Assembly (NCBI GenBank): GCA_001781995.1
Contig: MFNH01000040.1
Location: forward strand, 1-38,506
DNA: 38,506 nucleotides
Reading direction: 5' to 3'
Source: Candidatus Levybacteria bacterium RBG_16_35_11
Lineage (GTDB): Bacteria > Patescibacteriota > Microgenomatia > Levybacterales > UBA12049
This document shows positions 33,044 through 36,369 of this stretch, in pieces (positions within the stretch are counted from its first letter, which is position 1; every line of letters starts with the position of its first letter). Under the pieces are notes generated by a model that saw only the letters and a program-made list of their open reading frames with translations, did not search any database and was not told where the DNA came from. The position numbers and the translations under genes are program-made.

Positions 33044-33676
33044 ATGAAAAAGAAGCCGAATTTGAAAAAGATTAAAACTAAATCTAAAAACTACCAAATA
33101 GACCAATCGGGAAAAATAGAACAGACAAGCATAAATACTATTATCGCATTATCAAATAATATTCGGTATGCTGTACTTTTGCCAAAGAAAACCAAAAGAG
33201 CCCTTCAAGAAATATTCCGCAACGAAGGAAGACCAAGGATGTTTATATATGATACTTTTTGTGCCTTAATCACGATAGTATTAATTAACACAAAACCTAA
33301 TAAAAAGGTGGTCATTGATAGGGAATATAAGAATGAAGATTTAATTAAAGCCAGAATTTTAGAATTTATAAAAGTCTTTAACATGAAACCAGTTTTAAAC
33401 TTTTCACTCGTTGGAAAATCTTCCCGTGCACACCTTCTGGCGGCAAAAGTAGCTAATAAAAAAGTTAAACCCAATGTGGTTGTTAAATTAGAAGATATAA
33501 GCAGTATTCTTTGGCCAGCAAAAAAGACCGGGTATTCTGGTATTAACAGAACCGAGGGCAACTTAACTCAGGACTGGTTACCTGGAGGTCGGAAGCCATC
33601 CCGATCTTTTAATAAACATATCTTATCACGAAAAAATAAAAAAGTCAAGAAAAATAAAAACGGGAGGCGTCGCTAA
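33044..33676 (+). CDS. Uncharacterised small protein, copy A of a paralogous pair (possible RNase H-like fold); C-terminal ~50 residues read through a conserved stem-loop
   Basis: KNYQIDQSGKIEQT...KVVIDREYKNEDLIKA...FSLVGKSSRAHLLAAKVAN aligns with the ORF at 35615. Confidence 0.75.
   Translation: MKKKPNLKKIKTKSKNYQIDQSGKIEQTSINTIIALSNNIRYAVLLPKKTKRALQEIFRNEGRPRMFIYDTFCALITIVLINTKPNKKVVIDREYKNEDLIKARILEFIKVFNMKPVLNFSLVGKSSRAHLLAAKVANKKVKPNVVVKLEDISSILWPAKKTGYSGINRTEGNLTQDWLPGGRKPSRSFNKHILSRKNKKVKKNKNGRRR
33523..33609. other. Stem-loop SL1, copy A (AAAGACCGGG ... CCCGATCTTT)
   Basis: 9 of 10 bp pair; two pairs covary with copy B SL1. Confidence 0.5.
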
Positions 33677-33715
33677 TAGACACGCAGTCTATTGGTCGTA
33701 TTCTCCCTCATGATT
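33651..33715 (-). ncRNA. Candidate structured small RNA, copy A (SL2: outer GGGAG/CTCCC, inner AATAGAC-ACGCA-GTCTATT, T-rich 3' tail on minus strand)
   Basis: Nested stems at 33662-33707; 20-nt core identical to copy B; compensatory changes in outer stem; minus-strand promoter immediately upstream. Confidence 0.5.
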
Positions 33716-33721
33716 AATAAA

Positions 33722-33750
33722 AATATAACATATGAGATCGAATTTGTCAA
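33722..33750 (-). promoter_or_regulatory. Minus-strand sigma70-like promoter TTGACA-N17-TATATT upstream of candidate sRNA A
   Basis: -35 at 33745-33750, -10 at 33722-33727, read on reverse strand. Confidence 0.5.
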
Positions 33751-35614: not shown

Positions 35615-36121
35615 ATGAGGAATAAAAAGAAGTTGAATCTAAAAAAGATTAAAATTAAATATAAAAGCTATCAAGTAGATCAGTCTGGAAAAATAGAACA
35701 AACGAACAAAGTAACTATTATTGCTTTTTCTAATACTAAAAATGGTTCAATTAAACTTCTAGCAAAAGATAAGAGATATCTACAAAAAATTTACAGACAG
35801 GCTGGAAAATCAAAAATTTATATCTTTCAAGTTTTCTCTGCTCTCTTATATCTTCTTTTAGAAAAGTCTAAGATTGGAAGAGCTATAATTGTAATTGATA
35901 AAGAATACCCAGGTCAGGAAGCATTAATTAAAAGTTATCTGACACAGTTAGTTCAAAAACGAGGGAGGATAAAGCTAAATTTTGATGAGTTAAGATTTGA
36001 TTTTATCGGAAAAGGTAGCAATGCCCATGGAGTTGCTTCTAGAGCATACAAGATTAACCGTGCTAATTATATTGCCAGTAAAGAAGAAATATTGAGCCTA
36101 ATTCTATTATATGAGAAATAA
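35615..36121 (+). CDS. Uncharacterised small protein, copy B of the paralogous pair (possible RNase H-like fold)
   Basis: KSYQVDQSGKIEQTNKVTIIAFSN...AIIVIDKEYPGQEALIKSYL...FDFIGKGSNAHGVASRAYK. Confidence 0.8.
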   Translation: MRNKKKLNLKKIKIKYKSYQVDQSGKIEQTNKVTIIAFSNTKNGSIKLLAKDKRYLQKIYRQAGKSKIYIFQVFSALLYLLLEKSKIGRAIIVIDKEYPGQEALIKSYLTQLVQKRGRIKLNFDELRFDFIGKGSNAHGVASRAYKINRANYIASKEEILSLILLYEK

Positions 36122-36129
36122 AAAGATGA

Positions 36130-36197
36130 AAGACCAAGTACTTTATGGATATTTAAGAGCCGACTGGTTACGACTGGTCGACATCCTACTTGGTCTT
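36130..36197. other. Stem-loop SL1, copy B (AAGACCAAGTA ... TACTTGGTCTT, 11 bp perfect) enclosing a hairpin CGACTGGT-TACG-ACTGGTCG at 36161-36180
   Basis: Perfect inverted repeat; shares GACTGGTTAC and CATCC with copy A. Confidence 0.55.
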
Positions 36198-36268
36198 AAC
36201 AGTAAAATAATACCATAAGTTGAGTGAAAATGCAATACCCAGGGAATGTATTAAGAAGAAAAATCAAA

Positions 36269-36334
36269 GATAATAAAAATGGAGGGCGTTGCCAATAGAC
36301 ACGCAGTCTATTGTTCGTGTTCCTCCTCATGATT
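36269..36334 (-). ncRNA. Candidate structured small RNA, copy B (SL2: outer GGAGG/CCTCC, inner CAATAGAC-ACGCA-GTCTATTG, T-rich 3' tail on minus strand)
   Basis: Nested stems at 36281-36326; conserved with copy A including compensatory changes. Confidence 0.5.
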
Positions 36335-36340
36335 AATAAA

Positions 36341-36369
36341 AATAAAGCACATATGAGTGAATTTGTCAA
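36341..36369 (-). promoter_or_regulatory. Minus-strand sigma70-like promoter TTGACA-N17-TTTATT upstream of candidate sRNA B
   Basis: -35 at 36364-36369, -10 at 36341-36346, same spacing as copy A. Confidence 0.45.

Follow-up and report, generated by a model that had tools for sequence, protein, structure and literature searches.

The window analysed herein, a stretch of 38,506 nt on contig MFNH01000040.1 of Candidatus Levybacteria bacterium RBG_16_35_11 (GCA_001781995.1), lies within a 1.23-Mb draft genome of 72 contigs and contains two related stretches. In each, a small gene of an unnamed protein family, termed DQSGKIE, is followed by two RNA elements on the opposite strand, SL1 and SL2 (Table 1). 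The DQSGKIE family is characterised by the motifs IDQSGKIE, IDxEYxG and GKxSxAHxxA, and is present in 32 of 366 genomes of the class sample, with weaker matches to the same motif also found inside open frames of 1335 to 4509 codons (genome G399, contigs C5:5329-5745 and C6:164255-164662; G229 C25:17721-18110; G196 C2:43486-43869), such that the domain may also occur within giant proteins. Searches against Pfam, NCBIfam, PADLOC and PHROGs returned nothing convincing for this protein. An AlphaFold2 model built from only three sequences reached a pLDDT of 66, without a meaningful Foldseek match, and thus the suggestion that the order of predicted elements would suit an RNase H-like fold rests on motif order alone.

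Table 1. Positions of the DQSGKIE genes, SL1 and SL2 elements and their promoters within the window
Feature	Position	Strand	Details
DQSGKIE-family gene A	33044..33676	+	Homology to relatives ends near 33541; beyond this the frame reads through into the SL1 region
SL1 copy A	33518..33613	-	Closing stem 33600-33606/33526-33532, then T-run; promoter TTGACT-N17-TAAGAT at 33648-33620
SL2 copy A	33650..33715	-	About 60 nt, transcribed leftwards; closing stem 33703-33707/33662-33666; inner stem-loop 33675-33693; T-run 33650-33660; start and end inferred from promoter and T-run; covariance model hit 33662-33709, 77 bits
Promoter of SL2 copy A	33722..33750	-	TTGACA-N17-TATATT (11/12 match)
DQSGKIE-family gene B	35615..36121	+	168 aa
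SL1 copy B	36120..36200	-	Closing stem 36187-36197/36130-36140, then T-rich tail; promoter-like TTGCAT-N17-TATTAT at 36235-36207 (read by eye)
SL2 copy B	36270..36334	-	Closing stem 36322-36326/36281-36285; T-run on its 3' side; covariance model hit 36281-36328, 73 bits
Promoter of SL2 copy B	36341..36369	-	TTGACA-N17-TTTATT (10/12 match)

The closing stem of SL2 pairs GGGAG with CTCCC in copy A and GGAGG with CCTCC in copy B (plus-strand letters), confirming the claim of the earlier note that two compensatory changes separate the copies. The inner stem (AATAGAC/GTCTATT) and the loop are identical between the two. Both strands of copy B, and the plus strand of copy A, fold better than all 200 shuffled sequences, whilst the minus strand of copy A beats all but 3. 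With only two copies, however, one adjacent GA-to-AG double change per side could represent a single event, and a larger set of relatives was therefore assembled. A covariance model of five copies found matches in 9 of 82 genomes of the order, 36 of 382 of the class sample and 20 of 382 of the phylum sample (these samples overlap). Named relatives of the same RNA belong to Levybacteria, Woesebacteria, Roizmanbacteria, Shapirobacteria and other Patescibacteria. Three pattern or weak model hits were returned outside of this group (Acidimicrobiales, Eubacteriales and Aminicenantes records), two of which score below 24 bits and one of which is missed by the model, whilst the SL2 pattern was not found in viral contigs. 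No match to SL2 exists in Rfam 15 at the gathering cut-off, and permissive thresholds gave only chance matches, plus a true FMN riboswitch and an rRNA in neighbouring DNA.

Alignment of 55 copies is almost gap-free, and reveals standard pairing in 97.3 % of pair cells, compared to 81 % in shuffles, with slid controls collapsing. Nine of fourteen pairs change on both sides, including six of the seven inner-stem pairs, and thus the inner stem, described as invariant in the earlier note, is so only between copies A and B. Amongst 51 distinct sequences the third pair of the closing stem (model columns 5-46) is GC in 47 and AU in 4, whilst the fourth (6-45) is AU in 43, GC in 5 and GU in 2, with 1 mismatch. 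Covariation was assessed against a tree-based null written after the idea of R-scape, rather than with R-scape itself, in which substitutions reconstructed by parsimony are replaced at random sites. Seven pairs reach E < 0.05 given the structure: the third and fourth pairs at 0.041 and 0.042, respectively, 4-47 at 0.017, and inner pairs 17-35, 19-33, 20-32 and 22-30 at 5e-5 to 0.007. The five highest-scoring column pairs overall are all base pairs of the structure. Interestingly, unpaired columns 15 and 39 also covary (C with G/T, A with A), possibly reflecting a non-canonical contact in the internal loop. The earlier note's interpretation of selection on RNA structure is therefore supported by a larger alignment with a phylogenetic null, although it did not recognise the strand, the promoter and terminator, the partner gene described below, or that the window copies are orphan members of a phylum-wide family.

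The sequence surrounding the element indicates that the transcript derives from the minus strand, of which the plus-strand drawing of the earlier note is a mirror. Nearly every copy has TTGACA-N16..18-TATAAT ending 11-14 nt before the stem, followed by a near-invariant AUCAY leader, the RNA, and a T-run. A promoter ending 10-14 nt before the RNA is found in 46/53 copies, compared to 1.35 % of random positions, and a T-run after the closing stem in 49/52, compared to 17.8 %. On the other strand, a promoter of equal score anywhere upstream occurs in 10/53, and the T-run in 5/53. In addition, there are 15 G-U pairs and 3 A-C mismatches on the minus strand. A short ATG frame in copy A is not conserved, as most copies read ATCAC at this position. 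Thus, by sequence statistics rather than transcript data, SL2 is an independent non-coding RNA gene of about 60 nt, with its own sigma70-type promoter and a closing stem that doubles as an intrinsic terminator.

In most copies the 3' end of SL2 meets a convergent ORF of 170-200 aa, at -31 to +12 nt. The translations form one family, 59-76 % identical to the first row of their alignment, with an NYN domain by Pfam (PF01936) at the loci scanned in two genomes (E 4e-12 to 7e-17 in relatives). The only PDB relative found is VPA0982 (2QIP; HMM match at 2e-10). Acidic residues D19, D104, D128 and D130 are invariant in 34 sequences, and the nuclease is therefore predicted to be active. A protein search of the phylum set gives 15 hits above 265 bits, all of which adjoin SL2, with the next hits, from other NYN clades, at 212 bits or less. 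The order set adds six more, again all beside SL2, and thus 21/21 genes of this clade carry the RNA, across many families. The genome studied here retains an intact pair on contig 65, whereas the copies in the window are orphans, placed after the DQSGKIE-SL1 units. Curiously, the reverse situation is not observed: RNAs without an intact cognate NYN account for 14 of 52 copies, including copies A and B and several loci with a broken NYN, whilst NYN genes without the RNA number 0 of 21 (Fisher p = 0.007). These numbers are modest, the clade was defined from SL2 neighbours, and broken NYN genes in draft genomes may include sequencing errors. In one genome (G704 C11:6692-9084) three NYN genes lie in a row on one strand, one broken by a stop codon.

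A comparable arrangement is seen beyond this clade. Of 40 NYN genes of other clades examined at the same place, many have another RNA, consisting of a promoter, a AUCACGAUGA leader, a closing stem that changes sequence whilst remaining paired, and a GGUUUYGUCC hairpin. A strict promoter-plus-leader test passes in 23 of 40 on the RNA strand, 0 of 40 on the other strand, and 3.3 % of random windows. By inspection, both RNA types share the leader, the terminator-like closing stem and a U..GU-type loop. A second NYN gene of another clade (locus L007:1026-1568, genome G020) ends in a short hairpin, GAGCGGCGAUGUUCGUAAUCACCGCUC (about 1000-1030), followed by Ts and with its own minus-strand promoter, representing a possible third NYN-linked RNA type. 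A viral contig (IMGVR_UViG_3300025154_002520) carries an NYN gene 52 % identical to the family, with a class-3 RNA at its stop codon. Many DQSGKIE genes similarly face, by inspection, a promoter-driven structured RNA of varied type. SL1 is that RNA in the window, sharing GGAU..CGAC..CGUAA..CUUAAG..AUCC with relatives, and at one locus (L005:1962-2192, genome G040) two SL1-type RNAs lie in tandem behind one DQSGKIE gene, with the same closing stem but different inner hairpins. Neither the class-3 nor the DQSGKIE-linked RNAs match Rfam.

SL2 is thus the cognate RNA of one clade of NYN-domain nuclease, encoded tail-to-tail so that its 3' end abuts or overlaps the stop codon region. As to mechanism, the explanation that best fits, although held only tentatively in the absence of transcript, binding or toxicity data, is that the folded RNA, through its conserved internal loop and UNNGU loop, binds the NYN protein and restrains it in the manner of an RNA antitoxin, with the pair behaving as a small toxin-antitoxin-like or conditional defence unit. 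The orphan asymmetry is what an antitoxin predicts, and favours restraint over activation. In this scenario copies A and B would be RNA-only relics or extra copies, which may still act in trans on the intact pair on contig 65.

A nuclease requiring SL2 as an activating cofactor or scaffold, for example as a ribonucleoprotein defence effector acting on invading or cellular RNA, would give a similar pairing, and both the strict association and the separate RNA types of separate NYN clades fit this equally well; a viral contig also carries an NYN gene with a class-3 RNA. This seems less likely, however, as there is no variable guide segment, with the loop and leader constant and the variable parts base-paired, and as RNA-only copies keep promoter, leader and pairing. 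The convergent overlap might alternatively suggest an antisense RNA controlling stability of the NYN mRNA through its 3' end, but antisense pairing needs no internal structure, yet covarying stems, a constant loop and a G-U preference on its own strand are maintained, and orphan copies have no adjacent target. It is similarly unlikely that SL2 is a bystander housekeeping or regulatory RNA kept beside NYN by linkage or joint transfer: whilst orphans are retained in genomes without a same-clade NYN, the association in the 21 genes is always in the same orientation and at nearly the same distance. Least probable are readings of the element as a plus-strand 3'-UTR hairpin or terminator, or as a DNA hairpin used in recombination. 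The former is suggested by its position just after coding sequence and by the folding of the plus strand, but is opposed by the T-run, promoter and G-U bias of the minus strand. The latter is suggested by the clustering of units in which each small ORF is followed by a structured site, but covariation with G-U pairs and a promoter-terminator pair point to RNA, no recombinase was noticed amongst the ORFs of the window or of the cluster at L007, and no sign supported an integron-type attC site.

More broadly, it is possible, although not the likelier outcome, that Patescibacteria carry a wide and uncharted set of nuclease-RNA pairs, in which NYN clades, the DQSGKIE family and DUF3800 each have a dedicated, convergently encoded structured RNA, together forming a new type of toxin-antitoxin or defence system in which a free-standing small RNA with its own promoter controls a nuclease. 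As about 29 % of the Patescibacteria genomes sampled (112/382) carry an NYN gene of the wider group, such a rule could reveal a common control or defence device in these little-studied bacteria.

With regard to known systems, the partner protein belongs by profile to the NYN/LabA-like (DUF88) nucleases, for which no report of a dedicated convergent ncRNA was found in the open-licence papers searched. Type III toxin-antitoxin systems (ToxIN, CptIN, TenpIN; PMC5086642) are likewise two-gene units of an RNase-type protein and a cognate structured RNA, in which RNA and protein groups match one another. Their antitoxin RNA, however, comprises tandem repeats upstream of the toxin, with a terminator between, whilst SL2 is single copy in nearly all loci, lies downstream and convergent with its own promoter, has no pseudoknot that could be found, and is paired with an NYN rather than a ToxN fold. 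The DUF3800-associated RNA motifs (e.g. DUF3800-IX, RF02968, and DUF3800-I, RF02969; PMC11701678, PMC7657543) are also small structured RNAs beside a nuclease-like gene. RF02969 was not found in 79 genomes, nor in any control genome, and is therefore uninformative, but RF02968, present in 5 of 79 Patescibacteria genomes, lies convergent to Pfam DUF3800 genes at gaps of -34 to +27 nt, with a closing stem. SL2 differs from these in RNA sequence and fold, and in its protein family (NYN, not DUF3800); the DQSGKIE proteins also give no DUF3800 match. By architecture SL2 works like the DUF3800 RNAs, whilst by logic it may work like type III antitoxins.
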